Program-made: the position numbers and the translations under genes | Assembly (NCBI RefSeq): GCF_036013745.1 | Contig: NZ_CP107880.1 | Location: forward strand, 4,216,001 to 4,280,000 | Origin: Streptomyces sp. NBC_00483 | GTDB lineage: Bacteria > Actinomycetota > Actinomycetes > Streptomycetales > Streptomycetaceae | Direction of reading: 5' to 3' | Length of the DNA: 64,000 bases | Notes under the pieces: generated by a model | Told to the model about the DNA's origin: nothing | Database searches by the model: none | What the model saw: only the letters and a program-made list of their open reading frames with translations | Shown: piece by piece, positions 6,381 through 23,939 of the stretch | Layout: the number at the start of each line of letters is the position of its first letter | Numbering within the stretch: position 1 is the first letter of the stretch

Positions 6381-7553
6381 CTAGACGCGATTCCCCGCCC
6401 GCCACACCTCCGAGACCAGCGGCACACCCGGCCGGTAGGCGAAGTGGACGTGGCTCGGGGCGTTCAGGAATGTGAGGTCGGCGCGGGCGCCCGGGGAGAG
6501 GTGGCCTACGTCCGTGCGGCGGAGGGCCTTGGCGCCGCCTGCCGTGGCCGACCAGAGGGCCTCGTCGGGGGTCATGCCCATGTCGCGTACGGCGAGGGCG
6601 ATGCAGAACGGGACCGAGGACGTGAAGGACGAGCCCGGGTTGCAGTCCGTGGAGAGCGCGACCGTTGCGCCCGCGTCCAGGAGGCGGCGGGCGTTCGGCC
6701 ACTCGGCGCGGGTCGAGAACTCGGCGCCCGGGAGGAGTGTCGCCACTGTGTTGCCCTGCGCCAGGGCGTCCACGTCGGCGTCCGTGAGGTGTGTGCAGTG
6801 GTCGGCCGATGCCGCGTCCAGTTCCACCGCGAGTTGGACGCCGGGGCCGTAGCTGAGCTGGTTCGCGTGGATGCGGGGGAGCAGGCCCTTGGCCTTGCCC
6901 GCCGTCAGGATTGCCCTTGCCTGGTCGCCGTCGAAGGCGCCCTTTTCGCAGAAGACGTCCACCCAGCGGGCGTGGGGGGCGCAGGCGTTGAGCATTTCGC
7001 CCGTCACCAATTCCACGTATGCGGCGGGGTCGTCCGCGTAGTCCGGGGAGACGATGTGGGCGCCCAGGTAGGTGACTTCGTCCGTGTGGGCTGCTGCGAT
7101 GCGGAGGGCGCGTTCCTCGTCGGCTGTCGTCAGGCCGTAACCGGACTTTGTTTCGAATGTTGTTGTGCCCTGGCGGAGGGCTTCCGTGAGGTGGTGCTTG
7201 AGGTTTGCTTCCAGGGCTTCGTCCGTTGCGGCGCGCGTTGCCGCGACTGTCGTGCGGATGCCGCCTGCGGAGTAGCTCTGGCCCGACATGCGGGCGTTGA
7301 ACTCGGCGGTGCGGTCGCCTGCGAAGACGAGGTGGGAGTGGGAGTCGACGAAGCCGGGGATGACGGCGCGGCCGGCGGCGTCGTGGGCCTCGTCCGTGGC
7401 CGGGGCCTTGGCCGTTGGGCCCGCCCAGGCGATCTTGTCGTTCTCGATGACGAGGGCGGCGTTGTGGATTTGGCCCAGGGGGCCTTCGCCCAGGTCGGGG
7501 TTGTTCGTGACCAGGGTGCCGATGTTGGTGATGGCCGTGGTGCGGTTCGTCAT
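6381..7553 (-). CDS. hutI: imidazolonepropionase
   Basis: 390 residues from ATG 7553 behind AGAGGACC. Amidohydrolase fold with the metal pair in [13 protein letters not shown], later [17 protein letters not shown] and [11 protein letters not shown]. Converts 4-imidazolone-5-propionate to N-formimino-L-glutamate, step 3 of histidine degradation. It is the last gene of the minus-strand run hutU, M20 hydrolase, hutF, hutI. A 138-base gap with a strong palindromic repeat separates it from hutF, so its expression may be partly uncoupled. Confidence 0.95.
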
Positions 7554-7585: not shown

Positions 7586-7690
7586 TCCCCACCCCGCCCC
7601 TTCCCGAAAGTCCTGCCGGACGGGCCGCCTCAATCGCCGGCGGGGCTTGATAGATCAAGCCCCGCCGGCGATTGGGCGGAGCCCCGGGGC
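7586..7690. repeat. GC-rich intergenic palindromic repeat, copy 1
   Basis: Contains the module CCCCACCCCGCCCC TTCCCGAAAGTCC TGCCGGACGG, then two facing copies of CAATCGCCGGCGGGGC at 7631-7651 and 7654-7674. These form a perfect 21-bp stem with a two-base loop. The same words recur at six other sites in this window. It sits between hutF and hutI and may act as a terminator or mRNA stabiliser. Confidence 0.85.
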
Positions 7691-7691
7691 G

Positions 7692-9035
7692 TTAGTTGTG
7701 TAGGGCCGCGATGGATGTCGTCAGGGCTTCTGCCACGTTGCCGACCAGAACGTGTTCGCCGTCGCGGACCACCACGCGGCCGGACGACACCACGTCCGTC
7801 ACGTCGGAGGCGGTCGCTGCGAAGACTGCCGTTTCCGCGCCGAAGCGGGGTTCGGGGCCCGCCGTGCGGACGGAGTTCAGTGTCACCGTGACCAGGTCGG
7901 CCCGCGCGCCCGGTTCGATGGCGCCCGCGTCGTCCCAGCCGAGGGACGCGTGGCCGTCGGCGGAGGCCGCGCGGAGCAGCGCCGCCGCCGTCCAGTGGCC
8001 GCGGGTCCGGGACCGTAGGCGCTCGTTCAGCTCCATCGCGCGCGCCTCCTCGAAGAGGTCGATCACCGCGTGGCTGTCGGAGCCCAGCGACAAGGGTGAA
8101 CCCGCCTGCTGGAGCTGTACCGCCGGGCCGATGCCGTCCGCCAGGTCGCGTTCCGTCGTCGGGCACATGCACGTGCCCGTGGACGAGCCGCCGAGCAGGG
8201 CGATGTCCGTGTCCGTGAGGTGGGTGTTGTGGACGCCGACGGTCCGTGCGCCCAATACCCCGTGATCCGACAGGAGTTGGGTGGGTGTGCAGCCGTGGGC
8301 TGCCTGGCATGCGTCGTTCTCCGCTGTCTGTTCGGAGAGGTGGACATGGAGTGGGGCGCTGCGGGCCGACGCCCAGTTCGCGACCGTTGGCAGTTGGGCT
8401 GCCGGGACCGCCCGTACCGAGTGGATCGCCGCGCCGATCCGCACCCCCGGCCGCTCCTTCAGCAGTGACGCCCGTTCCGCCCACGCCTCCGCCGTGCCGT
8501 CACTGAAGCGCTGCTGGTGGTGGTCCGGGGCCTTGCCGAAGCCTGAGGAGACGTACGCCGTGTCGAGGAGGGTGATGCGGATGCCCGCCTCGTCCGCCGC
8601 CGCGATCAGCGCCTCGCCCATCGCGTTCGGGTCGGCGTACGGGGTGCCGCCGGGGGCGTGGTGGAGGTAGTGGAATTCACCGACCGCCGTGATCCCGGCC
8701 AGTGCCATCTCCGCGTAGACCGCCCGCGCGAGTGCGTGGTACGTGTCCGGCGTCAGGCGGTCCGCCACCGAGTACATGACCTCGCGCCACGTCCAGAACG
8801 TCCCGGACCCGACCTGGACCGTCGAGCGGAGCGCCCGGTGGAAGGCGTGGCTGTGGGCGTTCGCGAGGCCGGGGAGGGTCAGGCCGCGCAGGGCCGTCGC
8901 GCCGGGCGGGGGCGCGCCGACCCCCGTGCGGACCGCCGTGAAGCGGCCCTCGTCCGACACGTCCACCGCCACGCCCGGCTCGACGTGCGTGCCGAGCCAG
9001 GCGTGTTCCAACCAGTACGTCGTCGTCTGCGTCAC
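7692..9035 (-). CDS. hutF: formimidoylglutamate deiminase
   Basis: 447 residues from GTG 9035, which overlaps the stop codon of the M20 gene (GTGA), so the two are translationally coupled. Amidohydrolase signatures: NAHSHAFHRAL (metal pair), HVHLSEQTAEN, and SDSHAVIDLFEE near the C-terminus. Hydrolyses N-formimino-L-glutamate to N-formyl-L-glutamate and ammonia, the five-step variant of the hut pathway. Its product must then be deformylated, and no classical HutG is visible in this window. Confidence 0.92.
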   Translation of the reverse strand: MTQTTTYWLEHAWLGTHVEPGVAVDVSDEGRFTAVRTGVGAPPPGATALRGLTLPGLANAHSHAFHRALRSTVQVGSGTFWTWREVMYSVADRLTPDTYHALARAVYAEMALAGITAVGEFHYLHHAPGGTPYADPNAMGEALIAAADEAGIRITLLDTAYVSSGFGKAPDHHQQRFSDGTAEAWAERASLLKERPGVRIGAAIHSVRAVPAAQLPTVANWASARSAPLHVHLSEQTAENDACQAAHGCTPTQLLSDHGVLGARTVGVHNTHLTDTDIALLGGSSTGTCMCPTTERDLADGIGPAVQLQQAGSPLSLGSDSHAVIDLFEEARAMELNERLRSRTRGHWTAAALLRAASADGHASLGWDDAGAIEPGARADLVTVTLNSVRTAGPEPRFGAETAVFAATASDVTDVVSSGRVVVRDGEHVLVGNVAEALTTSIAALHN

Positions 9036-10270
9036 GTGCAGGCCAGTCCTTCCAGTACGTCGGCCAGTGCGCGTACCCCTTCCAGGCAGTCGTCCTCGGC
9101 CGCGGACTCGGCCGGGGAGTGCGAGACGCCCGTCGGGTTGCGCACGAACAGCATGGCGGTGGGGATCGACTGGGCGAGGATTCCCGCGTCGTGTCCCGCC
9201 CCCGTTCCGAGGACGGGGATTTTCAGATCCGCTGCCGAGTCCTTCGTGCCCAGGATGCGGGCCAGCTCGTCGCGGAGCGCGTCGTCGAACTCGACGACCG
9301 GCGTGAACGACTCGCGGGTCAGCGATACGTCGATGCCGTGCGCCTCCGCGTACTCGCGGGCCGCCTTCTCGACCCCGGTGACCGTCGCGTCCAGGGACTC
9401 CTGGTCGGCGGCGCGGGAGTCGAGCCAGCCGCGTACGAGGGAGGGGATGGCGTTGACGCCGTTCGGCTCGACCGAGATCTTGCCGAAGGTCGCTACTGAG
9501 CCTGCCAGTTGGGCCTCGCGGCGGGCCGCCAGGACCGTCTCCGCGTAGGACAGCATCGGGTCCCGGCGGTCGACCAGGCGGGTCGTGCCCGCGTGGTTGG
9601 CCTCGCCGCGGAAGTCGAAGCGCCAGCGGCCGTGCGGCCAGATGGAGCTTGCGATGCCGATGGCGTCGCCGGACAGGTCCAGGGCGCGGCCCTGTTCCAC
9701 GTGGAGTTCGATGAACGCGCCGATACGGTCCAGGCGTTCGCGGTCCGCGCCGATCGCGTCCGGGTCGTGGCCCGCCCGCTCCATGGCCTGCGGGAGGGTG
9801 ATTCCGTCGGCGTCCGTGAGCTTGTGGGCCTGGTCGCGGGTGAGGACGCCTGCGGTGAGGCGGGAGCCGACGCAGGCGAGGCCGAAGCGGGCGCCTTCCT
9901 CGTCGCCGAAGTTGGTGATGGCGAGGGGTCTGGTGAACTCCGCTCCCCTGCGGCGGAGTTCGTCCAGGGCGGCGAAGGAGGAGACGACGCCGAGGGGGCC
10001 GTCGAAGGCGCCGCCGTCCGGGACGGAGTCCAGGTGTGAGCCTGTGACGACGGCGTCGCCGGCCTCCGGGTCGCCGAGCCAGGCCCACTGGTTGCCGTTG
10101 CGGTCCAGTTCGTAGGTCAGGCCGCGGGATTCGGCCTGGGCCTTGAACCATGCGCGGCAGTCGGTGTCGGCGGCCGTCCAGGCGAATCGGCGGTAGCCGC
10201 CGGAGTCGGCGTTGCGACCGATCGGCTGCAAGTCGCGCCACATCTCCAGGAAGGAAGGAGAATTCCCCAC
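9032..10270 (-). CDS. M20-family amidohydrolase (allantoate amidohydrolase-like)
   Basis: 412 residues if GTG 10270 is used; an internal ATG at 10243 would give 403. Metal-site motifs: GSHLDSVPDGGAFDGPLG, NFGDEEGARF, FRGEANHAGTTR and GTGAGHDAG near the C-terminus. The family removes carbamoyl or ureido groups from N-substituted amino acids. Its place between hutU and hutF suggests it performs the missing N-formylglutamate hydrolysis here; that is inference. The family-conserved N-terminal words FLEMWRDLQPIGR lie upstream of or at the ATG, so the true start is probably further up. The only candidate, GTG 10270 with GAAGGGG before it, lies inside a dispersed repeat. Confidence 0.85.
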   Translation of the reverse strand: MGNSPSFLEMWRDLQPIGRNADSGGYRRFAWTAADTDCRAWFKAQAESRGLTYELDRNGNQWAWLGDPEAGDAVVTGSHLDSVPDGGAFDGPLGVVSSFAALDELRRRGAEFTRPLAITNFGDEEGARFGLACVGSRLTAGVLTRDQAHKLTDADGITLPQAMERAGHDPDAIGADRERLDRIGAFIELHVEQGRALDLSGDAIGIASSIWPHGRWRFDFRGEANHAGTTRLVDRRDPMLSYAETVLAARREAQLAGSVATFGKISVEPNGVNAIPSLVRGWLDSRAADQESLDATVTGVEKAAREYAEAHGIDVSLTRESFTPVVEFDDALRDELARILGTKDSAADLKIPVLGTGAGHDAGILAQSIPTAMLFVRNPTGVSHSPAESAAEDDCLEGVRALADVLEGLACT

Positions 10271-10389: not shown

Positions 10390-12054
10390 TCACTCGCCCT
10401 CGCCCTCCCGCATCGGTACCCGAACGCCGCGCTCCGCCGCGACCTCCGCCGCGTGCTCGTAACCCGCGTCGACGTGGCGGATGACGCCCATCGCCGGGTC
10501 GTTCGTGAGGACGCGTTCGATCTTCTGGGCAGCGAGGTCCGTGCCGTCCGCGACGCAGACCTGGCCCGCGTGGATGGAGCGGCCCATGCCGACGCCGCCG
10601 CCGTGGTGGAGGGAGACCCAGGTGGCGCCGGAGGAGGTGTTGACCAGGGCGTTCAGGAGCGGCCAGTCGGCGATCGCGTCGGAGCCGTCCTTCATGGCCT
10701 CCGTCTCGCGGTAGGGAGAGGCGACCGAGCCCGAGTCGAGGTGGTCGCGGCCGATGGCGACCGGGGCCGAGAGTTCGCCGGACGCGACCATCTCGTTGAA
10801 CTTGAGGCCCGCCAGGTGGCGTTCGCCGTAGCCGAGCCAGCAGATGCGCGCCGGGAGGCCCTCGAAGGCGATGCGCTCGGCGGCCATGTCGAGCCAGCGG
10901 TGCAGGTGCTTGTTCTCGGGGAACAGCTCCTTGATGGCCTTGTCGGTGGCCTCGATGTCCTTCGGGTCGCCGGACAGCGCGGCCCAGCGGAACGGGCCGA
11001 GGCCCTCCTCGAAGAGCGGACGGATGTGCGCCGGGACGAAGCCGGGGAAGGCGAAGGCGCGGTCGTAGCCGGCCTTGCGGGCCTCGTCGCGGATCGAGTT
11101 GCCGTAGTCGAAGACCTCGGCACCCGCGTCCAGGAAGCCGACCATGGCCTCGACGTGCAGGCGCATCGACTGGCGGGCCTTGTCGGTGAAGCCGGCCGGG
11201 TCCGCCTCGCGCTCCTTGTCCCAGTCCTCGACGGAGATGCCGACGGGCAGGTAGGCGAGCGGGTCGTGGGCCGAGGTCTGGTCCGTCACGATGTCGATCG
11301 GGGCGCCGCGGCGCAGCAGCTCCGGGAAGACCTCGGCGGCGTTGCCGACGACGCCGATGGACACGCCGCGGCGCTCGTCGCGGGCCTGCACGGCCAGTTC
11401 GAGGGCGTGGTCGAGGTTGTCGGCCTTCACGTCGAGGTAGCGGGTGCCGATGCGGCGGTCGATGCGGGTCTCGTCGACGTCGACGCAGATCGCGACGCCC
11501 TCGTTCATCGTGATGGCGAGGGGCTGGGCGCCGCCCATGCCGCCGACACCGGCGGTGAGCGTGATGGTCCCGGCGAGCGTGCCGTCGAACTTCTTGCGGG
11601 CGACCGCGCCGAAGGTCTCGTAGGTGCCCTGGACGATGCCCTGCGAGCCGATGTAGATCCATGAGCCGGCCGTCATCTGGCCGTACATCATGAGGCCTTC
11701 GGCCTCCAGCTTGCGGAACTCCTCCCAATTGGCCCAGTCGCCCACGAGGTTGGAGTTCGCGAGCAGCACCCGCGGCGCCCACTCGCTGGTGCGCAGCACG
11801 CCGACCGGCTTGCCGGACTGGACGAGGAGGGTCTCGTCCGACTTCAGCGTCTTCAGCGTGCGCACGATCGCGTCGTACGCCTCCCAGGACCGGGCCGCCT
11901 TTCCGGTGCCGCCGTAGACGACGAGCTTGTCGGGGTGCTCGGCAACCTCGCCGTCGAGGTTGTTCATGAGCATCCGCAGCGCGCCCTCCTGCTGCCACCC
12001 CAGGGTGTTGAGCTCGGTGCCGCGCGGGGCTCGTACGGGGCGGGGTCCTGACAT
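10390..12054 (-). CDS. hutU: urocanate hydratase
   Basis: 554 residues from ATG 12054 behind AGGAGGCCGCC. The tightly bound NAD+ site is visible as [18 protein letters not shown]. Other family blocks include [45 protein letters not shown] and [11 protein letters not shown]. Converts urocanate to 4-imidazolone-5-propionate. It is the first gene of the minus-strand hut run and is divergent from an APC permease, sharing a 144-base promoter region that contains a palindrome. Confidence 0.97.
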
Positions 12055-12096
12055 CGGCGGCCTCCTGGAGTGCGTGTCAATCAGCTGTTCAGCCTT

Positions 12097-12123
12097 CTAT
12101 TCACATCCTGGCGACATGAATAG
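12097..12123. promoter_or_regulatory. palindrome in the hutU / permease promoter region
   Basis: CTATTCA (12097-12103) and TGAATAG (12117-12123) are separated by 13 bases. The site lies between the divergent hutU and permease starts and is a natural operator candidate. The half-site TGAATAR also appears in front of the lyase at 21378 and the RpiR regulator at 23008. Confidence 0.55.
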
Positions 12124-12198
12124 GTCTAGTCAAGAGGTGCTCGGGGGAATCCCTACCTCCTACGCGGACAACCACCTACGCACCTCGCGGGAGGTCCA

Positions 12199-13536
12199 GT
12201 GACATCTGCGACAGCCGACACCCCACTGCACCGGGCGATCGGGCCAAAACTGCTGATCCTGTTCGTGGTCGGGGACATCCTCGGCACCGGGATCTACGCG
12301 ACCACCGGCAAGGTGGCGGGGAAGGTCGGCGGCGCGCTGTGGCTGCCGTTCGTCATCGGGTTCGTCGTGGCGCTGCTCACCGCCGCCTCGTACGCCGAAC
12401 TCGTCGGCAAGTACCCGAAGGCGGCGGGCGCGGCGCTCTACGCGCAGAAGGCGTTCAAGGTCCCGTTCCTGACCTTCATCATCGCGTTCATGGTGATGTG
12501 CTCGGGGCTCTCGTCCGCGAGCGCCGCCGCCCGCGCGTTCAGCGGTGACTACCTCGGCGAGCTGACGAGCAACGCGCTGCCGCCCACCCTGGTCGCCATC
12601 CTGTTCGTGCTCGCGCTCGCCGCGCTGAACCTGCGGGGCGTAGCTGAGTCGGTGAAGGCGAACGTCGTGCTGACCCTGGTCGAGGTGACCGGGCTCGCCA
12701 TCATCCTCGCCATCGGCGCGTCCGCCGTCCTGACCGGTGAGGGGGAGCCCTCCCGGCTGGCCGACATCGATACGGGCGGCACCGGATTCGCCCTGATGAC
12801 AGGGGTGTTGGGGGCGACCGCGCTGGGCTTCTTCGCGTTCGTCGGGTTCGAGGACTCGGTGAACATGGCCGAGGAGACCAAGGACCCGGCCCGCACCTTC
12901 CCGCGCGCCCTCTTCATCGGCGTCACCGTGACCGGCACCATCTATGTGCTCGTCGCGCTCGTGTCCTCGCTGCTCGTCGACCACAAGGTGCTGGAAGCGT
13001 CGAGCGGGCCGCTGCTCGAAGTGGTGAAGGCCGGCGGCGTCGACTTCCCGCACAAGCTCTTCGCGCTGATCGCCCTGTTCGCCGTCACCAACTCGGCGCT
13101 CATCAACATCATGATGGCCTCGCGGCTCTGCTACGGGATGGCCAACGAGCGCATCCTGCCGAGCGCGATGGGCCGCGTGCTGCCCAAACGACGCACGCCC
13201 GTCGTGGGCATCGTCTTCGTGTCGCTGCTCGCGGTCGGGCTCGTGTCGACCGGGGAGATCGAGGGGCTCGGCGACACCACGTCGTTCCTGCTGCTCTGCG
13301 TGTTCGCCGTGGTCAACGTCGCCGTGCTCGTGCTGCGCAAGGACCCGGTCGACCACCGGCACTTCCGTACGCCGACGGTCCTTCCGGTGCTCGGCGCGGT
13401 CACCTCGCTGATCCTCGCCAGTCCGCTCGCCGACCGGCCCGCCGAGGTCTACATCCGGGCGGGCGTGCTCATCGCCATCGGGATCGCACTGTGGGCCGTC
13501 AACAGGGTGGTGATGAAGACGCACGGGGAGGAGTAG
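12199..13536 (+). CDS. APC-superfamily amino acid permease
   Basis: 445 residues from GTG 12199 behind GGGAGGTCCA. About 12 membrane helices. The first carries the APC motif VGDILGTGIYATTGKVAG. Later landmarks are FFAFVGFEDSVNMAEETKDP (helix 6 and loop) and SRLCYGMANERILP. Divergence from hutU suggests histidine or urocanate as the substrate, but the sequence alone does not fix it. A hairpin terminator follows at 13564. Confidence 0.88.
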   Translation: MTSATADTPLHRAIGPKLLILFVVGDILGTGIYATTGKVAGKVGGALWLPFVIGFVVALLTAASYAELVGKYPKAAGAALYAQKAFKVPFLTFIIAFMVMCSGLSSASAAARAFSGDYLGELTSNALPPTLVAILFVLALAALNLRGVAESVKANVVLTLVEVTGLAIILAIGASAVLTGEGEPSRLADIDTGGTGFALMTGVLGATALGFFAFVGFEDSVNMAEETKDPARTFPRALFIGVTVTGTIYVLVALVSSLLVDHKVLEASSGPLLEVVKAGGVDFPHKLFALIALFAVTNSALINIMMASRLCYGMANERILPSAMGRVLPKRRTPVVGIVFVSLLAVGLVSTGEIEGLGDTTSFLLLCVFAVVNVAVLVLRKDPVDHRHFRTPTVLPVLGAVTSLILASPLADRPAEVYIRAGVLIAIGIALWAVNRVVMKTHGEE

Positions 13537-13563
13537 GGGCTCAGAAGCGCACCCGAGGCGCCT

Positions 13564-16392: not shown

Positions 16393-17805
16393 TTACGGAG
16401 CGGTGGCCCCCACCGCAGTAGGGCTATCCCCCGTCTTCTCAGTGGGCCACTCCCCCGCATTGCGCCGGGCGAGCAGCCAGTACAGGACGGCCGGGACGAC
16501 GAGCCCCACGATCCACGACACGTCCGCCCCGCCCAGCGGCCCGACGAGCGGGCCCGTGTAGAAGGCGGTGGCGAGGAACGGCAGCTGGGCGAGCAGCCCG
16601 ATCCCGTAGACGACGAGTGCGTCCCAACGCCAGGCGCCGTAGCGGCCGTTGGGGTCGGAGAGGGCCGGGAGGTCGTAGCGCTCGCGCGAGATCAGGTAGT
16701 AGTCGACCAGGTTGATCGCGGACCACGGCGTGAAGAACGTCAGCAGGAACAGCAGGAAGTCCTTGAACGAGGTCAGGAAGCTGTCCTTGCCGGCCAGGGC
16801 GACCACCGTGCCCGCGACCATGATGATCCCGATGTAGACCGCCCGGCCGCGCTGCGAAAGCACCCGCTGGCCGCGGAATCCGCTGATGCCGGTGACCATC
16901 GACATGAAGCCGCCGTACGTGTTGAGCACGTTGACGGTGAGCTTGCCGAGCGCGATCACGAAGTAGAAGAACGAGGCGGCGAGCCCCGCCCCGCCGAGCG
17001 ACACGACGTATCCGACCTGGTTGTCGATGAACTTCTCGCCCGCGCTCGCCGCGACCAGCACACCGAACGCCATGGACCACTGCGAGCCGAGCGCGGAGCC
17101 CGCGAGCGTCCACCAGAACGTGGCCTTGCCGCTGGTCGTGCGCGGCAGATAGCGCGAGTAGTCGGCGACGTAGGGGCCGAAGGCGAGCTGCCACGAGGCC
17201 GACAGGGAGACGGCGAGCAGGAACATCGGCATCGAGAAGTGCGCGTCGGACAGGAGCGCGCCGACGTCGGCCCGGTCGAAGAGCCGCACGCCCAGGTAGA
17301 CGAAGGCGAGCGCGCACACGACGCTCGCCACCCGCCCGAGGACGTGGATGACGCGGTAGCCGACCGTCGCCACGATCCCCGTGACGAGCGCGAAGACGAT
17401 GATGCCCGTCGTGTCGTTGGTGTGCGTCAGCTGCGCGGTGGCCTGCCCGGCGAGCACGGTGCCGCTCGCGAAGAACCCGACGTACATCAGGACGACGAGG
17501 AGCAGCGGGACGACGGCGCCCTTCACCCCGAACTGGGCCCTGGACTGGATCATCTGGGGCAGCCCGAGCTTCGGCCCCTGCGCCGAGTGCAGTGCCATGA
17601 CGGCGCCGCCGAGCAGATTGCCGAGCACGAGCCCGATCAGCGACCAGACCACGTCGCCGCCGAAGACGACGGCGAGCCCGCCGGTGACGACGGCCGTGAT
17701 GTGGAGGTTGGCGCCGAGCCAGAGGGTGAACTGGTTGAACGCGCTGCCGTGCCGTTCGCTGTCCGGCACGACGTCGATGGAGTGCTTCTCCACTACCGCT
17801 GCCAT
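16393..17805 (-). CDS. NCS1-family permease (cytosine/purine/hydantoin type)
   Basis: 470 residues from ATG 17805 with GGGAGGCCATCGG before it. Twelve helices are expected. The N-terminal ERHGSAFNQFTLWLGANLHITAV and the later FGPYVADYSRYLPR, FFTPWSAINLVDYYLI are family landmarks. NCS1 carriers move cytosine, uracil, allantoin, hydantoins and similar ring compounds with Na+ or H+. It sits in an operon with a betaine-type ABC transporter, 12 bases after the binding protein. A heterocyclic substrate or breakdown product of the same pathway is therefore possible; this is inference. Confidence 0.88.
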   Translation of the reverse strand: MAAVVEKHSIDVVPDSERHGSAFNQFTLWLGANLHITAVVTGGLAVVFGGDVVWSLIGLVLGNLLGGAVMALHSAQGPKLGLPQMIQSRAQFGVKGAVVPLLLVVLMYVGFFASGTVLAGQATAQLTHTNDTTGIIVFALVTGIVATVGYRVIHVLGRVASVVCALAFVYLGVRLFDRADVGALLSDAHFSMPMFLLAVSLSASWQLAFGPYVADYSRYLPRTTSGKATFWWTLAGSALGSQWSMAFGVLVAASAGEKFIDNQVGYVVSLGGAGLAASFFYFVIALGKLTVNVLNTYGGFMSMVTGISGFRGQRVLSQRGRAVYIGIIMVAGTVVALAGKDSFLTSFKDFLLFLLTFFTPWSAINLVDYYLISRERYDLPALSDPNGRYGAWRWDALVVYGIGLLAQLPFLATAFYTGPLVGPLGGADVSWIVGLVVPAVLYWLLARRNAGEWPTEKTGDSPTAVGATAP

Positions 17806-17817
17806 CCGATGGCCTCC

Positions 17818-18762
17818 CTACTTCTTGCTGAGCCCGTGCCGGCGCGCGTAGTCGTTCGCGACGTCCTCGGGGTCCTTCTTGTCCTTGTCCACGAGCCGGT
17901 TGAGCTCGGTGAGGTCCTCGGTCGTCAGCACGTTGCCCAGGCGGGCCAGGGCCTTGCGGACGGTCGAGTCGGCCTTGCGGTCGGCGATCAGCGGGACGAC
18001 GTGCTGACCGGGGACCAGGTTCTTGGGGTCGGTGAGGACGACCCAGTCGTTGGCGGCGATGTCGGTGTCGGTGGTGAAGAGGTTGGCGACATCGACATCG
18101 CCGCTCTTCAGCGCGCCCTTCACCAACGGGCCCGAGGAATCAAGGGACTTGAACTCCTTGAACTCGACGCCGTAGACGTCCTTGAGCCCGACGGACCCCA
18201 CCTGCCGCTTCTTGACCTCCGGGGCGGCGCCGATGACGAGCTTCCCGTTGTGGTTCGCGAGGTCGGCGAGCGACTTGAGCTTGTACTTCTTCGCGGTCTC
18301 GCGGGTCACCACGAACGCGTCCGAGTCCTCGGCCAGCCCGTACGGCAGGATCTGCAGGCCGGTCGGGAGCACCATGGCGAGCGCGTTCTGCATCTCGCCC
18401 TCCTCGGTGGCCTTCGCCTTCTTGTCGAGGTAGTGCAGGAGGGCGCCCTGGTACTCGGGCAGCAGGTCGATGTCGCCGCCCTTGAGGGCGGGGATGAGGA
18501 TCTCGCGGGTACCGAGGTTCGGCCGCACGCTCGTCTTCACACCGGCGGCGTCGAGCGCGGCCGCGTACAGGTAGCCGAGCACCTGGTTCTCGGTGAAGTT
18601 GGCGGTGCCGATGGTGACACCCTTCTTGCTGGAGCCGCCACCCGAGAGCGAACCCCCTTGCTGGTCGAGCGAGGTGATGCCGCTGGAGCAGGCGGACAGG
18701 GCCGGGACGGAGGCCGCGGCTGCCAGGCCGCCCAGGAGGGCACGTCGGTTGAGATTGCGCAT
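17818..18762 (-). CDS. betaine-type ABC transporter substrate-binding lipoprotein
   Basis: 314 residues from ATG 18762. Signal MRNLNRRALLGGLAAAASVPALSAC ends in the lipobox LSAC. The mature domain starts GVTIGTANFTENQVLGYLYAAALDAAG, followed by LGTREILIPALKGGDIDLLPEYQGALL, the pattern of OpuBC/OpuCC/OsmF-type proteins. That group binds quaternary amines (glycine betaine, choline, carnitine). From memory, the binding domain of the ergothioneine importer EgtU belongs to the same group. The ligand cannot be read from the sequence. It is the fourth gene of the transporter operon. Confidence 0.9.
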   Translation of the reverse strand: MRNLNRRALLGGLAAAASVPALSACSSGITSLDQQGGSLSGGGSSKKGVTIGTANFTENQVLGYLYAAALDAAGVKTSVRPNLGTREILIPALKGGDIDLLPEYQGALLHYLDKKAKATEEGEMQNALAMVLPTGLQILPYGLAEDSDAFVVTRETAKKYKLKSLADLANHNGKLVIGAAPEVKKRQVGSVGLKDVYGVEFKEFKSLDSSGPLVKGALKSGDVDVANLFTTDTDIAANDWVVLTDPKNLVPGQHVVPLIADRKADSTVRKALARLGNVLTTEDLTELNRLVDKDKKDPEDVANDYARRHGLSKK

Positions 18763-18773
18763 CTTGCTTGCTC

Positions 18774-19451
18774 CTAGGCGGACTTGAGAGTGGCGGGGCG
18801 GTTGCGGAAGAGGAGACGCTGGAGCCCGGAGAGGGCCAGGTCGAGCACGACGGCCACGACCGCGACGAGCACGGCCCCACCGAGCACCTGCACCAGGTCG
18901 CGCTGGGCGAGCCCGTCGAAGACGTAGCGGCCGAGCCCACCGAAGGACACGTACGCGGCGATGGTGGCGGTGGCGACGACCTGGATGAGCGCGAGCCTCA
19001 GCCCCGTCATGATCAGCGGCAGCGCGAGCGGCAACTCGACCTGGAACAGCACCTGGTGGGCCTTCATGCCCTGCCCGCGCGCGGCATCCCGCACCTCGGG
19101 ATCGACGGCGGTCATCCCGGCGTACGTATTGGTGACGATGGACGGCACCGCGAGCGCGACGAGCGCGATGTAGACGGGCCACATCGAGAGCCCGCTCGCG
19201 AGGAACACGAGCACGACCAGGCCCACGGTCGGCAGGGCCCGCCCGAAGGACGACAGGTTGATGGCGACGAAGGCGCCCCGCCCGGTGTGCCCGATGAGCA
19301 GCCCGACCGGCAGAGCGATCACGGCGGCGACGAGGGTGGCGAGCAGCGAGTACTGGAGGTGCTCGGCGACGCGCGTCGCGATGCCGTCGCTCCCCGCCCA
19401 CTGCTCCCCGCCGACCAGCCAGGCCCCGAGGTTCTTGAAGAGTTCGAACAT
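18774..19451 (-). CDS. betaine-type ABC transporter permease
   Basis: 225 residues from ATG 19451. Six helices with the permease signature AARGQGMKAHQVLFQVELPLALPLIMTGLRLA (EAA loop). Ends with VLDLALSGLQRLLF. It is paired with a second permease gene seven bases upstream, the OpuBB/OpuBD arrangement. Separate start and the short length show that it is not fused to a binding domain. Confidence 0.9.
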   Translation of the reverse strand: MFELFKNLGAWLVGGEQWAGSDGIATRVAEHLQYSLLATLVAAVIALPVGLLIGHTGRGAFVAINLSSFGRALPTVGLVVLVFLASGLSMWPVYIALVALAVPSIVTNTYAGMTAVDPEVRDAARGQGMKAHQVLFQVELPLALPLIMTGLRLALIQVVATATIAAYVSFGGLGRYVFDGLAQRDLVQVLGGAVLVAVVAVVLDLALSGLQRLLFRNRPATLKSA

Positions 19452-19458
19452 GGCGGGT

Positions 19459-20115
19459 TCAGGCCTTCCGGGTCCGAGTACGGGTACGGGCCCACGGAGT
19501 GAGCAGCCGCTGGGCGCCGACGAGCAGCGCGTCCGCGACGAGCGCGAGCAGCAGGGTGAGGACGACGCCGACGATCACCGGGGTCGGGAAGTTCCGCTGG
19601 AACCCGTCGGTGAACAGCTGACCGAGCCCGCCGTCCCCGATGTACGTCGCCACGGACACGAGCGAGATGGCCATCACGGTGGCGATCCGCACGCCCGCCA
19701 TGATCACGGGCAGCGCGAGCGGCAGCTCGACGGTGAGCAGCGTCCGCATCGGCCGCGTCCCCATCGCCTTCGCCGCCTCCTTCGTCTTCGCGGGCACGGA
19801 GTCGAGCCCCTCGACGGTGTTCCGCAAGAGGACGACGAGCGTGTAGATCGTCAGGCCGATGACGGTGGTGGTGCGGGTGAGCCCGGAGATGGGCAGCAGC
19901 AGCACGAAGACCGCGATGGACGGGATGGTGAACAGCACGTTCGACATCCCGAGCAGAAACCCGCGCAGCGGCCGCACCCGGTGCGCGACGACGGCCAGCG
20001 GCAGGGATATGACCAGCCCGAACAGCACGGCGCTGAGGGCGGCTTGGAGGTGGGAGAGGGTGAGGGTGGCGAGATCGGACTGATGCGACCCGATCCAGGA
20101 CCAGTCGATGGTCAC
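19459..20115 (-). CDS. betaine-type ABC transporter permease
   Basis: 218 residues from GTG 20115, which overlaps the ATPase stop by four bases. The EAA-type loop reads EAAKAMGTRPMRTLLTVELPLALPVIMAGVRIA. The first helices read LSHLQAALSAVLFGLVISLPLAVVAHR, typical of OpuB/OpuC permeases. It should form the heterodimeric channel with the next gene. Confidence 0.9.
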   Translation of the reverse strand: MTIDWSWIGSHQSDLATLTLSHLQAALSAVLFGLVISLPLAVVAHRVRPLRGFLLGMSNVLFTIPSIAVFVLLLPISGLTRTTTVIGLTIYTLVVLLRNTVEGLDSVPAKTKEAAKAMGTRPMRTLLTVELPLALPVIMAGVRIATVMAISLVSVATYIGDGGLGQLFTDGFQRNFPTPVIVGVVLTLLLALVADALLVGAQRLLTPWARTRTRTRKA

Positions 20116-21317
20116 GCGGCACCGCCCGCGGACTCAGCCTTCTCGCCGGTGTCGGACACCTCGGCGCCGTCGGGCTCCTCGGTCTCACCGCGCGATTCCG
20201 CACCATCAAGCGCCGAGTTGCCCAAATTCAGCCCCTGCGGCGATTGAGCAGCGGGGTCCGGGGCAGAGCCCCGAGACGTCCCGCCGGACTGGGCGGCACT
20301 GTGCGCCTGCCCGGACCGCTCATGGACGTCGTCCCGCGAGCTGACACCCGTAAACACACCGTCCGCGTCCACCCGGACAACCAGCCCGACGGGCGACGCC
20401 ACCGACTCGTTCAACGCCGACAGCAACGAGTCCCCGTCGCGCAGCGCCCGCACCGGGAACTCGGCCCCACCGTCCCGCTCGCGCCAAGCGACCGGCTTAC
20501 GCGCCCCGTCAAGGACGAGCTCCCACGCCCCGCCCTCCGGCGCGGCCCCCTGCGACACATCGCCCAGCGTCGTGAGCGACAACAACTTCAACCCACGCTC
20601 GGCCCCGAGGAAGTCCGCCACGAACTCGTCCGCGGGCCGCGCGAGCAGCTCCTCCGGCGGCGCACACTGCACGAGGTGCCCGCCCTCACGGAACACGGCT
20701 ATTCGGTCCCCGAGCCGCACCGCCTCGTCGATGTCATGCGTGACGAAGACGATCGTCTTGCTCAACTCGGTCTGCAGCCGCAGCAGTTCATCCTGAAGCT
20801 GGGTACGCACGACGGGGTCGACGGCCCCGAACGGCTCGTCCATGAGCAGCACCGGCGGATCCGCGGCCAGCGCCCTCGCGACACCCACCCGCTGCTGCTG
20901 ACCACCGGACAGCTGATGCGGATACCGCTTCCCCATCTCGGCGGAGAGCCCCACCCGCTCAAGAAGCTCACCGGCCGCGGCCCGCGCCTTCTTCCGCCCC
21001 CAGCCGAGCAGCAGCGGCACCGTGGCGACGTTGTCGAGCACGGTGCGGTGCGGGAAGAGCCCCGCCTGCTGAATGACGTAACCAATGGATCGCCGCAGCT
21101 CAGCGGCGTCCTGCTCCAGGACGTCGCGCCCGCCGACCCGAATGGTGCCGGACGAGGGCTCGACCATACGATTGATCATCCGGAGGCTGGTCGTCTTGCC
21201 GCAGCCCGACGAGCCGACGAAGACGGTCACACCCCCTTCCGGCATGTCGAGCGAGAGATCATGCACCGCTGTCGTGCCGTTCGGGAACCGCTTGTGGACC
21301 GCGTCGAACTGGATCAT
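20112..21317 (-). CDS. betaine-type ABC transporter ATPase with a repeat-derived C-terminal tail
   Basis: 401 residues from ATG 21317. Walker A GSSGCGKTT, signature LSGGQQQR, Walker B VLLMDEPFGAVDP and the switch FVTHDIDEA are intact. Residues 240-335 resemble the CBS-type regulatory region of OpuA/ProV ATPases (PVRALRDGDSLLSALNESVASPVGLVVRVDADGVFTGVSSRDDV). Residues about 342-371 (GTSRGSAPDPAAQSPQGLNL and following) are the translation of a dispersed intergenic repeat inserted in frame at 20205-20290. They are followed by an acidic Ser/Glu/Gly tail. It is the first gene of a six-gene operon, divergent from the ammonia-lyase homologue. Confidence 0.92.
   Translation of the reverse strand: MIQFDAVHKRFPNGTTAVHDLSLDMPEGGVTVFVGSSGCGKTTSLRMINRMVEPSSGTIRVGGRDVLEQDAAELRRSIGYVIQQAGLFPHRTVLDNVATVPLLLGWGRKKARAAAGELLERVGLSAEMGKRYPHQLSGGQQQRVGVARALAADPPVLLMDEPFGAVDPVVRTQLQDELLRLQTELSKTIVFVTHDIDEAVRLGDRIAVFREGGHLVQCAPPEELLARPADEFVADFLGAERGLKLLSLTTLGDVSQGAAPEGGAWELVLDGARKPVAWRERDGGAEFPVRALRDGDSLLSALNESVASPVGLVVRVDADGVFTGVSSRDDVHERSGQAHSAAQSGGTSRGSAPDPAAQSPQGLNLGNSALDGAESRGETEEPDGAEVSDTGEKAESAGGAA
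20205..20290. repeat. GC-rich palindromic repeat inside the ABC ATPase coding sequence, copy 3
   Basis: Contains AAATTCAGCCCCTGCGGCGA, TTGAGCAGCGGGGTCCGGGG and CAGAGCCCCGAG, the same words as the intergenic copies at 26890, 29368 and 53507. It stays open on the minus strand and encodes about 30 residues of the ATPase tail. Confidence 0.75.
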
Positions 21318-21496
21318 GGAGCGCCTCTGGAGTCCTCTTGCCCGTCCTGCATATCGTCATGCAGAGTTCTCGGTACGTGAATAACTTGTCAATGCCCCCG
21401 CGTAAATCGCAGGTAAATCCCCGTACCGGGGACCGAACTATGAGACGCGGACGCCCGTTTCGGGGCATTTGAACACTGATCAAGGGGGAACAGCGC
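21318..21496. promoter_or_regulatory. divergent promoter region of transporter operon and lyase
   Basis: The only non-coding space between the two divergent units. It holds TGCAT-N6-ATGCA at 21354-21369, a TGAATAA half-site at 21378-21384 and the ribosome site GGGGGAA before the lyase ATG. A shared operator here would control both uptake and cleavage. Confidence 0.5.
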
Positions 21497-22960
21497 ATGG
21501 TGTCACAGCCGGTCGTCGTGCTCGACGGCCACGGCCTCCCGGTCGCCGACGTGGTCCGCCTCGCCCATGCGAGCGCCCGTCCGGTCCCCGGCACGGACGC
21601 CATGAAGCGCGTGGACCGGTCCTGGAACGCGGCGCGGGAGATCGCCGCCTGGGGCAGGGTCTACGGCCGCTCCACCGGCGTCGGCGCCAACCGCAGCGAG
21701 GACGTGCCCACCGAGGCCGCCGCCGACCACGGCCTGCGCCTGCTGCGCAGCCACGCGGGCGCGATCGGCGACGAGCTGCCCGAGCGCGAGGTGCGCGCGA
21801 TGCTCGCGGTCCGCGCGAACCAGCTCCTGGCCGGTGGCGCGGGCCTGCGCCCCACGGTCGTCACGGCGCTCTGCGAGGCCCTGGAGGCGGGCGCGTACCC
21901 GGCGGTCAACGAGCACGGCTCGGTCGGCACCGGCGACATCGCGCCCCTGTCCCAGATGGGCCTGGCCCTCGCCGGCGAGCACCCGTGGCGCGGCAAGGGC
22001 ACCCCGCCCAAGCCGCAGCCCCTCGACAACAACGACGCCCTGGCCCTGATCTCCTCCAACGCACTCACCCTCGGCCAGGCGGCCCTCGCCCTGCACGAGA
22101 TGCGCGACCTGCTGGCGGCGACGAACCTGGTGGCGGCCCTGAGCCTGCTCGCGGTCGACGGTTCCTACGAGGCGTACGCCCTGCCCGTGCACGAGTCGCG
22201 CCGCCACAGGGGCAGCTTCGACGTGGCGGCCCGGATGCGCGAGATCCTCGGCGCCGACGACCACCCGACGCCCCCGCTCGGCCGGATCCAGGACCCGTAC
22301 GGCTTCCGCTGCGTGCCGCAGATCCACGGCCCTGCGCAGGACGCGGCGGACGCCTTGGAGGACGTCCTCACGGTCGAGATCAACGCGGCGGCGGAGAACC
22401 CCCTGATCTCGTACACGGAGATGGCGGCCTACCACCACGGCGGCTTCTACATGGCCCAACTCGCCCTGGCCCTGGACCACTTCCGGCTCGCGGTCAGCCA
22501 GGTGGCCCGCCTCTCCACGTCCCGCCTCTCCACCCTCAACGAACCGAACTTCACCCGCCTTCGCCCGTTCCTCGCGGACGGCGAACCGGCGTCGTCCGGC
22601 GTGATGATCCTGGAGTACGCGGCCGGTGGCGCCCTCGCCGACCTGCGCGCCTTCTCCGCTCCCGCCTCGCTCGGCCACGCCGTGCTCTCCCGCGGCGTCG
22701 AGGAGCAGGCCAGCTTCGCCTCCCTGGCGGCCCGCCAGACCCTGCGCGCGTGCGCGGCGTTCCGGCAGGTCGTGGGCTGCGAACTGGTCGCGGCGGTGCG
22801 GGCGTTGAGGCTGCGCGACCTGCACCCGGACGTGGAGCTTCCGGTGGGGCGGGCGTTCGAGCTGGCGTTGCAGGACCTGCCGGCGGAGATCGCGGACCGG
22901 CCGCTGACGGAGGACGTGGCGCGCGCGGCACAGCTCCTGGGCCGCTTCGTGACCCCCTAG
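21497..22960 (+). CDS. histidine/aromatic ammonia-lyase homologue lacking the MIO-forming Ser
   Basis: 487 residues from ATG 21497. The HAL/PAL fold is clear: YGRSTGVGANR (Tyr56 in the Y-G-x-x-T-G-x-G motif), IQDPYGFRCVPQIHGPAQD (Gln265, Tyr268, Arg271), NAAAENPLIS, HHGGFYMAQLALALD and VEEQASFASLAARQ (Glu402). In HAL the loop GSVGASGD cyclises to the MIO electrophile. Here it reads GSVGTGDIAPLSQ (141-153): one residue is missing and no Ser is left. The usual LLNGT block is ISSNALTLG, and the His of EDHVS is Gln. Classical MIO chemistry is therefore unlikely. A MIO-independent elimination, as described for ergothionase, fits better. Divergent from a betaine-type transporter and followed by an RpiR regulator. 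Annotating it as hutH would be unsafe. Confidence 0.85.
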   Translation: MVSQPVVVLDGHGLPVADVVRLAHASARPVPGTDAMKRVDRSWNAAREIAAWGRVYGRSTGVGANRSEDVPTEAAADHGLRLLRSHAGAIGDELPEREVRAMLAVRANQLLAGGAGLRPTVVTALCEALEAGAYPAVNEHGSVGTGDIAPLSQMGLALAGEHPWRGKGTPPKPQPLDNNDALALISSNALTLGQAALALHEMRDLLAATNLVAALSLLAVDGSYEAYALPVHESRRHRGSFDVAARMREILGADDHPTPPLGRIQDPYGFRCVPQIHGPAQDAADALEDVLTVEINAAAENPLISYTEMAAYHHGGFYMAQLALALDHFRLAVSQVARLSTSRLSTLNEPNFTRLRPFLADGEPASSGVMILEYAAGGALADLRAFSAPASLGHAVLSRGVEEQASFASLAARQTLRACAAFRQVVGCELVAAVRALRLRDLHPDVELPVGRAFELALQDLPAEIADRPLTEDVARAAQLLGRFVTP

Positions 22961-23007: not shown

Positions 23008-23030
23008 TGAATAGAATCATGCACAATTCG
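23008..23030. promoter_or_regulatory. candidate operator upstream of the RpiR regulator
   Basis: TGAATAG at 23008-23014 is followed, 11 bases on, by ATTCG (23026-23030), an imperfect inverted pair. It lies 30-50 bases before the regulator start and shares its half-site with the hutU/permease palindrome. Confidence 0.4.
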
Positions 23031-23057: not shown

Positions 23058-23939
23058 ATGAGCGAGCGCACGGACAGCACACGGAGCGGGTCGGACAACG
23101 ACGCGGGGGCGCAGGGCCCCTCCGCCCGCCTCCAGAGCCTCTTCGAGGGGCACCGCCTCACCCCCACCCAGCGCCGCATCGCGCACTGCATGGTGCGGCG
23201 CGCGGCCGAGGTGCCGTTCCTGTCGTCCGTGGAGCTGGCCGAGCTCGCGGGCGTGAGCCAGCCCTCCGTGACCCGGTTCGCGGTGGCGCTCGGCTTCGAC
23301 GGCTACCCGGCGCTGCGCAAGCACCTGCGCGAGACGGCGCCCTCCGGACCGGCCACCGCCACCAAGGCCAACGAGTACCAGCAGGCCGTGGAAGCCGAGA
23401 TCGCCAACCTCCGGCACCTCGCCGAGCTGCTCGCCGACCCGGAGCCGGTGGAGCGGGCGGGCAGGATCCTCGCCGCCTCACCGACGCTGCTCGTCCTGGG
23501 ACTGCGCGCGGCCGCGTCCCAGGCGTTCGGCTTCGCGTACTTCGCCGCGAAGGTCCACCCCGACGTACGCCTCCTCGACGAGGGCGGCACCATGCTCGCC
23601 GACCGCATCGACGCGGCCGTCCGCGCGGGCGCCAAGACCCTGCTCTGCTTCGCGCTCCCCCGCCACCCGCGCGAGGTCGTCGACGCCCTCGCGTACGCGA
23701 AGGAGGCGGGCCTGACCGTCGTCACGGTCGCCGACTCCGCCTTCGCCCCCGTCGCCCGCCACTCCGACCTGCTGCTGCCCGCGGCGGTCGGCACGGGCCT
23801 CGCCTTCGACACGGCGTGCTCGCCGATGCTGCTCGGCCGGGTACTGCTTGAGGCGATGTGCGACGAGCTGCCGCAGGCACAGGCGCGACTCGAGGAGTTC
23901 GACGTACGGGCGGCGGAGCGCGGCCTCTTCGTCGAGTGA
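23058..23939 (+). CDS. RpiR/MurR-family transcriptional regulator
   Basis: 293 residues from ATG 23058 behind GGCGGGAG; an upstream in-frame ATG at 23019 lacks a good site. The HTH_6 domain contains LTPTQRRIAHCMVRRAAEVPFLSSVELAELAGVSQPSVTRFAVALGFDGYPALRKHL. The C-terminal SIS domain contains LLVLGLRAAASQAFGFAYFAAKVHPDVRLLDEGG and TLLCFALPRHPREVVDALAYAKEAGLTVVTVAD. SIS domains bind phosphosugars in the classic members, but several RpiR proteins respond to other ligands. It follows the lyase on the same strand by about 100 bases. It probably controls the lyase/transporter locus. Confidence 0.88.
   Translation: MSERTDSTRSGSDNDAGAQGPSARLQSLFEGHRLTPTQRRIAHCMVRRAAEVPFLSSVELAELAGVSQPSVTRFAVALGFDGYPALRKHLRETAPSGPATATKANEYQQAVEAEIANLRHLAELLADPEPVERAGRILAASPTLLVLGLRAAASQAFGFAYFAAKVHPDVRLLDEGGTMLADRIDAAVRAGAKTLLCFALPRHPREVVDALAYAKEAGLTVVTVADSAFAPVARHSDLLLPAAVGTGLAFDTACSPMLLGRVLLEAMCDELPQAQARLEEFDVRAAERGLFVE

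Follow-up and report, generated by a model that had tools for sequence, protein, structure and literature searches.

The window, i.e., the whole stretch of 64,000 nucleotides of the Streptomyces sp. NBC_00483 genome that was analysed, carries on its forward strand an ATG-initiated open reading frame (21497..22960) for a protein of 487 amino acids, whose one Pfam domain is PF00221 (383.9 bits). By this match and by its place in a tree, the protein is a lyase homologue of the histidine ammonia-lyase (HAL) family that lacks the MIO triad, and it belongs to a group referred to below as clade IV. Divergently from it, on the reverse strand, lie the genes of an OpuC-type ABC importer: an ATPase (20112..21317), for which TIGR01186 proV is the best NCBIfam match at 307 bits (cut-off 326.6), two permeases recognised by the Pfam domain BPD_transp_1 (19459..20115 and 18774..19451) and a substrate-binding lipoprotein (PF04069, OpuAC; 17818..18762) with a remodelled pocket. 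An NCS1-type permease (16393..17805, same strand) follows behind the importer and is a loose partner, found in 29 of 80 Streptomyces loci. Downstream of the lyase, an RpiR/MurR-type regulator is encoded at 23058..23939 on the forward strand. The window also holds, all on the reverse strand, hutU (10390..12054), the only urocanase gene of the genome (TIGR01228, 911 bits, cut-off 375), an M20-family amidohydrolase (9032..10243; 655 bits against NF006770, the allantoate amidohydrolase model, with a cut-off of 372) and hutF for formimidoylglutamate deiminase (7692..9035) and hutI for imidazolonepropionase (6381..7553). The lyase gene is 9.4 kb away from hutU, with other genes intervening.

The codons at 21917..21937 (forward strand) spell a remodelled MIO loop, GSVGTGD, at residues 141-147 (context NEHGSVGTGDIAPL). 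T-G takes the place of A-S-G with one residue fewer, just as the initial annotation had read it, and Ser142 is the Ser that precedes the triad and that MIO enzymes have too. ASG or CSG is present in 21 of the 21 MIO rows compared, and neither occurs even once in the 487 residues, so no intact triad lies elsewhere in the protein; an alignment slip masking one is ruled out by the same count and by the HutH (GSLGCSGD, L081; 645 bits) and the PAL-like lyase (GSLGASGD, L082) of the same genome, which have CSG and ASG, respectively, at the corresponding position. Among the matches listed, GSVGTGD is kept in all 120 homologues, which share 81-96% identity and, where named in the source, come nearly all from Streptomyces. 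The lyase resembles HutH in family, substrate-side residues and hut neighbourhood, but differs from it in the missing triad, in a score of 297.8 bits against TIGR01225 (NCBIfam hutH), below the cut-off of 539, and in that the genome has a separate HutH. Comparison with four orthologues gave dN/dS values of 0.15-0.24; together with the conservation of residues among homologues, these values rule out a decayed HAL and uphold the view that the protein is not a decayed lyase. From the loss of the triad it follows that a different elimination chemistry would be at work. Of 150 genomes sampled from the genus, 69 contain a relative (E <= 1e-75), a count in which loops were not inspected individually and which includes some paralogues at 45-60% identity; the named members of the clade are annotated as aromatic amino acid or histidine ammonia-lyases. 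A scan of viral contigs with six peptide patterns returned no relatives of the lyase.

A phmmer search against PDB sequences gave a probable HAL as the best match (7TQR, 181.3 bits) and the ergothionase of T. denticola as the second (6S7J/6S7Q, 169.6 bits). Relatives were gathered from 396 phylum genomes and 394 class genomes (overlapping sets), plasmid records and a protein database, and 64 rows selected from the fetched set, without L086-L088, L096, L128 and some others, were used for a tree with the loop columns removed. The window lyase falls within the actinobacterial clade IV (27 rows, support 100/100). The ergothionase-type clade I (7 rows) and the proteobacterial clade II (4 rows) are united at 100/100, and clade III (4 rows, QAD loop) joins them at 93/74. 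The 21 MIO rows stand on one side of a branch with support 86/92, the MIO-less side as a whole reaching only 80/55; with the odd, long-branched row L123_2 set aside, the tree needs a single change to account for MIO loss. The compared MIO-less rows have in common that GVG replaces GFG, Ser replaces the Asn of NGT and x-[GA]-D replaces ASGD. More divergent forms were also seen. Near hutU, L123 (about 12194-13543) and L174 (13509-14765), both on the reverse strand, carry a very divergent PF00221-like lineage in which AVGAAGEI or GSGAAGEI stands in place of GSVGASGDL, AG replaces the NG of NGT and the triad has no Ser. Another locus of the same genus as the window, L208, encodes at about 7625-9100 (forward strand) a lyase with the loop GSIGASDL, in which the triad Gly is lost; this gene is divergent from an OpuC-type importer, the PF04909-like amidohydrolase described below comes next, and its nearest tree rows by path are those of clade III.

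To our knowledge, ergothionase is the sole characterised MIO-less exception in a family marked by MIO, and Maurer et al. are said to have described four essential residues in it in 2019. The window lyase shares with the T. denticola enzyme the HAL family, a loop with the same one-residue deletion (SSIGEGD in ergothionase), Ser for Asn195, GVG for GFG and a common set of Tyr, His, Gln, Arg and Glu residues. On the other hand, it is 25-30% identical to 17 ergothionase-type proteins, sits in a separate clade, has Tyr374 in place of Lys and is encoded near an ordinary urocanase. The link to ergothionase drawn by the initial annotation therefore stands for the loss of MIO, the deletion and the second PDB match, but does not extend to membership of the ergothionase clade or to the Lys. 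Even from outside that clade, the window lyase may use a MIO-free mechanism as in ergothionase, which is an active enzyme in spite of lacking MIO (PMC13405746).

In the alignment, Tyr56, His86, Ser186, Gln265, Arg271, Tyr374 and Glu402 are each present in 27 of the 27 rows of clade IV, Thr145 in 26, Arg or Lys at position 66 in 24, Arg58 in 21 and Asn188 in 20. Four of the five residues first described as kept, namely Tyr56, Gln265, Arg271 and Glu402, which we take to be the equivalents of HAL Tyr53, Gln277, Arg283 and Glu414, hold throughout; the fifth, Tyr268, does not, being Tyr in 11 rows and Phe in 13, and so is no fixed feature of the family. The equivalent of HAL Tyr280 is variable within the family. 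The change at the Asn of LLNGT, presumably HAL Asn195, was read correctly and is general (Ser186 in 27/27), whereas that at the His of EDHVS is true of this protein (Gln404) but not of the clade, where His is found in 13/27 rows. We assume that Arg271, His86 and Glu402 correspond to the carboxylate and imidazole contacts of HAL. Position 374 is Lys in 10 of the 11 ergothionase-side rows (clades I and II), and position 66 is Lys in all 11 of these; the 21 MIO rows have Ala, Ser or Val there. Arg58 was considered as a fixed mark of the change in the binding protein and dropped, as it is not strictly kept across rows.

The gene neighbourhood was compared at two distances. Among 80 Streptomyces loci with at least 50% identity, the flanks contain the ATPase in 68, the permeases in 62 and 60, the binding protein in 64, the regulator in 70, HutU in 60 and the M20 protein in 54, short contigs explaining part of the misses. 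The lyase lies between HutU and a CBS gene in 56/56 loci where both were seen, and HutU is downstream of the lyase in 55/60 and upstream in 5/60, the window being of the upstream type. Since these loci are close kin, their arrangement is synteny and not independent evidence. Across clade IV, the binding protein and permease of the importer are found near the lyase in 21/31 loci, against 0/20 canonical HAL loci (Fisher 7e-7) taken from genomes in which no close clade IV match was seen, among which L176 has permease matches and no binding protein and L195 spans just 12.8 kb; with the five Streptomyces orthologues excluded, the comparison is 16/26 against 0/20 (Fisher 6e-6). The positive loci span at least eight families (f1, f5, f7, f18, f89, f90, f101 and f105) and an Arthrobacter plasmid (L119), on which ATPase, permease, permease, binding protein, hutU and lyase follow one another on one strand. 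The pair is absent from the stretch in 10/31 loci (L118, L121, L122, L123, L128, L164, L165, L170, L172 and L173); L122, which does have the ATPase and permeases, and L128 are on short contigs, a binding protein is present in L170, and hut genes are present in L123. A clade IV locus fetched later (L227) likewise gave no binding-protein or permease match. HutU is present in the stretch in 13/31 clade IV loci, some misses being due to contig ends, and, as expected, in 15/20 HAL controls. Canonical MIO HAL, hutU and the MIO-less lyase occur together in five loci (L124, L161, L162, L163 and L169); because of these, and of the HutH of the window genome, the MIO-less lyase is no stand-in for HutH. 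On the ergothionase side, a plasmid of Paracoccus saliphilus (L120, 312-10605) has a MIO-less lyase directly after a hut operon that includes a HutH gene of its own. Close to that lyase is a gene for a putative sulfate exporter, and a YeiH gene is found close to the Polaromonas lyase (L115).

The divergent promoter contains a palindrome, CTGCATATCGTCATGCAGAGTTC (21347..21369), as a putative operator and a candidate site of the RpiR regulator. In 79 of the 80 Streptomyces loci, the 260 bases upstream of the lyase gene contain the half-site CATGCAnAnTTC, compared with 37 of 2400 random pieces, some of which may contain true sites, and the pattern TGCA...TGCA is found in the same interval in 34/80 loci against 12/1600 random pieces. 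The half-site is absent from 14 loci of other genera or clades. Within the 64 kb window the half-site recurs just once, as TCATGCACAATTC before the RpiR gene (23017..23029, forward strand); as a conserved operator this second site is unsupported, with exact matches in 1/70 loci before RpiR and 1/80 after the lyase, and a loose pattern is found in 7/70 loci against 3/2100 random pieces. The promoter region of hutU (window 12055-12198) contains CTATTCA and TGAATAG 13 bases apart, and TGAATAG also stands before the RpiR gene, a possible shared operator. Two canonical hut loci without a MIO-less lyase in the stretch (L183 and L190) carry a homologue of the same regulator, which may therefore be a general hut regulator. 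Neither a sigma-70-like promoter nor a terminator was found around the lyase start.

The type of urocanase bears on the product. HutU of the window stays under the NCBIfam cut-offs for thiourocanate hydratase (668 of 930 bits) and S-methyl thiourocanate hydratase (701 of 880), the M20 protein stays under that of the ErtE model (285 of 520), and seven urocanases from MIO-less loci are likewise hutU-type and under both thiourocanate cut-offs; these two models are used without a positive control, the urocanase of the ergothionase-side Paracoccus locus being under the cut-offs as well. The neighbourhood thus resembles bacterial ergothioneine breakdown (thiourocanate hydratase, ErtE) in having urocanase and M20 homologues, but differs from it in that both are below the NCBIfam cut-offs. 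If the lyase feeds HutU, which is of the hutU type, urocanate is its most plausible product. The genome has egtD, so the host should make hercynine itself. HutXWV are, as we assume, OpuC-family importers of histidine, and for that reason the presence of hut genes beside an importer does not necessarily point to a betaine.

The binding protein has its closest solved relatives in Lmo1422 (106 bits) and EgtUC (92), with ProX scoring 89, and shows, in EgtUC numbering, F244, R275, Y293, D339, D341, E375, R379, F419 and Q443. In an alignment-based table of 20 window-type rows, four covering the second half only, Phe244, Arg275, Tyr293 and Asp341 are kept in 16/16 each and Asp339 in 14/16, Glu375, Arg379 and Phe419 are kept in 20/20 each, and position 443 is Gln, Glu or Ala. 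The classical betaine cage is lost in this type, with only Tyr293 and Phe419 aromatic, unlike in the binding proteins of L124 and three clade III loci, which keep Asn339, Tyr341, Tyr443 and Asp381. Other PF04069 proteins of the genome have the full cage (L235) or lack it (L237, L239 and L240). The likeness to EgtU/OpuC-type importers of quaternary amines consists in subunit make-up, nearest binding proteins and the kept Glu375 and Arg379; the difference, in the missing Gly244, Tyr341 and Tyr443. At the EgtU marks Gly244 and the F293/Y337 pair, the window protein has Phe, Tyr and Ala instead. The G244F change is reported to lower the affinity of EgtUC for ergothioneine about 100-fold and to reduce its stability as well, and a glycine-betaine binder has an analogous Glu (PMC9732360). 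Phe244 accordingly speaks against ergothioneine, and Glu375 with Arg379 is not specific to EgtU.

Taken together, the anatomy of the locus supports a MIO-independent amine lyase that would convert an imported histidine derivative into a substrate for the hut route. The explanation we place first, and to which we give an even chance, is that of a HAL-family lyase eliminating an amine from an imported N-alpha-substituted histidine to yield urocanate. The OpuC-type importer, provided that it carries the substrate of the lyase, would take up such a compound; the lyase would remove the beta-proton and expel the amine without the MIO cofactor; and the resulting urocanate would pass through HutU, HutI, HutF and the M20 hydrolase, whose role in the route is presumed, to glutamate. 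Hercynine (histidine betaine) itself is the favoured substrate, a choice that we hold tentatively and well short of even, and trimethylamine would then be the amine expelled. Since a quaternary amine is unable to form an adduct with MIO, loss of MIO is what would be expected of a hercynine lyase; by chemistry, urocanase type and importer family, hercynine would be the simplest choice. Its main weakness is the lost cage of the binding protein, which would better suit a protonated than a quaternary amine and so speaks against it. Since that protein has no aromatic betaine cage (Asp stands at Tyr341 of EgtU), the leaving amine may be another than trimethylamine, and the pocket, as far as it can be read from the sequence, may be compatible with other N-substituted histidines. 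A literature search, with most subscription journals outside its reach, found nothing on the conversion of hercynine to urocanate and trimethylamine or on hercynine degradation in Streptomyces, and no histidine betaine lyase appeared in the titles and abstract openings covered.

An ergothionase proper, which would remove trimethylamine from ergothioneine (or its sulfonate) and pass thiourocanate onward via HutU or other enzymes, we consider unlikely at this locus. The second PDB match, with its common deletion, SSNA/SCNA and GVG, the basic residue at position 66 (Arg or Lys in 24/27, Lys in 11/11 on the ergothionase side) and a binding protein akin to EgtUC are what such an enzyme would lead one to expect, but the separate clade (100/100), Tyr374 in 27/27 rows where the ergothionase side has Lys, Phe at Gly244 with neither Tyr341 nor Tyr443, and a urocanase under the thiourocanate-hydratase cut-off argue otherwise. 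Ergothioneine is thus the less likely substrate for the window, the lyase clade, Tyr374 and the urocanase being the reasons why it is not favoured. A CDO-type dioxygenase and a PF04909-like amidohydrolase, present together in 8/31 clade IV loci (L118, L161, L162, L164, L166, L172, L173 and L174), often with a LacI regulator, also fit ergothionase and hint at a sulfur-bearing substrate for some clade members; PF05995 was confirmed on two of the CDO-type proteins. The window genome, by contrast, has no match to this amidohydrolase and only remote CDO relatives, and the pair occurs in 1/80 Streptomyces loci (L040) and also alone. The amidohydrolase is found in 15/31 lyase-bearing genomes against 12/363 others of the class (Fisher 6e-12, kinship uncorrected), with genomes matched by hand, both sets assumed to be one and the same sample of 394, and the 31 being 34 minus G411, G615 and G621 (34-37% identity, canonical-HAL-like, loops unchecked). 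As proof of a sulfur substrate the pair was rejected: of 20 further amidohydrolase loci, L227 alone has a clade IV lyase nearby. This locus also carries the CDO-type dioxygenase.

A protonated N-substituted histidine as substrate, e.g., an opine-like N-(carboxyalkyl)histidine from which an amino acid would leave as in argininosuccinate lyase, also seems rather improbable. Asp339 and Asp341, together with Arg275 and Arg379, would then bind the secondary ammonium and two carboxylates. Their conservation in window-type proteins (16/16 for Arg275 and Asp341, 14/16 for Asp339, 20/20 for Arg379 and likewise for Glu375), the betaine cage kept by L124 and the three clade III loci and the hut linkage are consistent with it; against it, no opine gene was noticed nearby (no dedicated search), the pocket is read from an alignment, and some rows with such a binding protein lack Arg58, which might provide an additional contact to a carboxylate. 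A catalytically dead or regulatory homologue, no longer a lyase, would accord with the lost MIO, Ser for Asn195 and the variable Tyr280 equivalent, but is very improbable given Tyr56, His86, Gln265, Arg271 and Glu402 in 27/27, the dN/dS of 0.15-0.24 and the activity of the MIO-less ergothionase (PMC13405746).

Returning to elimination from an imported N-alpha-substituted histidine, a broader reading, which we judge a little short of even, is that a large, misnamed actinobacterial clade consists of MIO-free lyases cleaving the C-N bond of N-substituted histidines other than ergothioneine, that they provide a second, MIO-independent entry into the hut route with its own importer and regulator, and that several MIO-free loops (TGD, QAD, ASD and AAGE) serve different amines. 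If this is true, a clade with relatives in 69 of the 150 genus genomes would be wrongly named ammonia-lyase, and one could ask whether retention or loss of MIO follows the leaving group. A widespread misnamed family may thus have a reaction so far unrecognised and, if urocanate is formed from hercynine or a like compound, the locus would represent a salvage route in soil actinomycetes such as this one.
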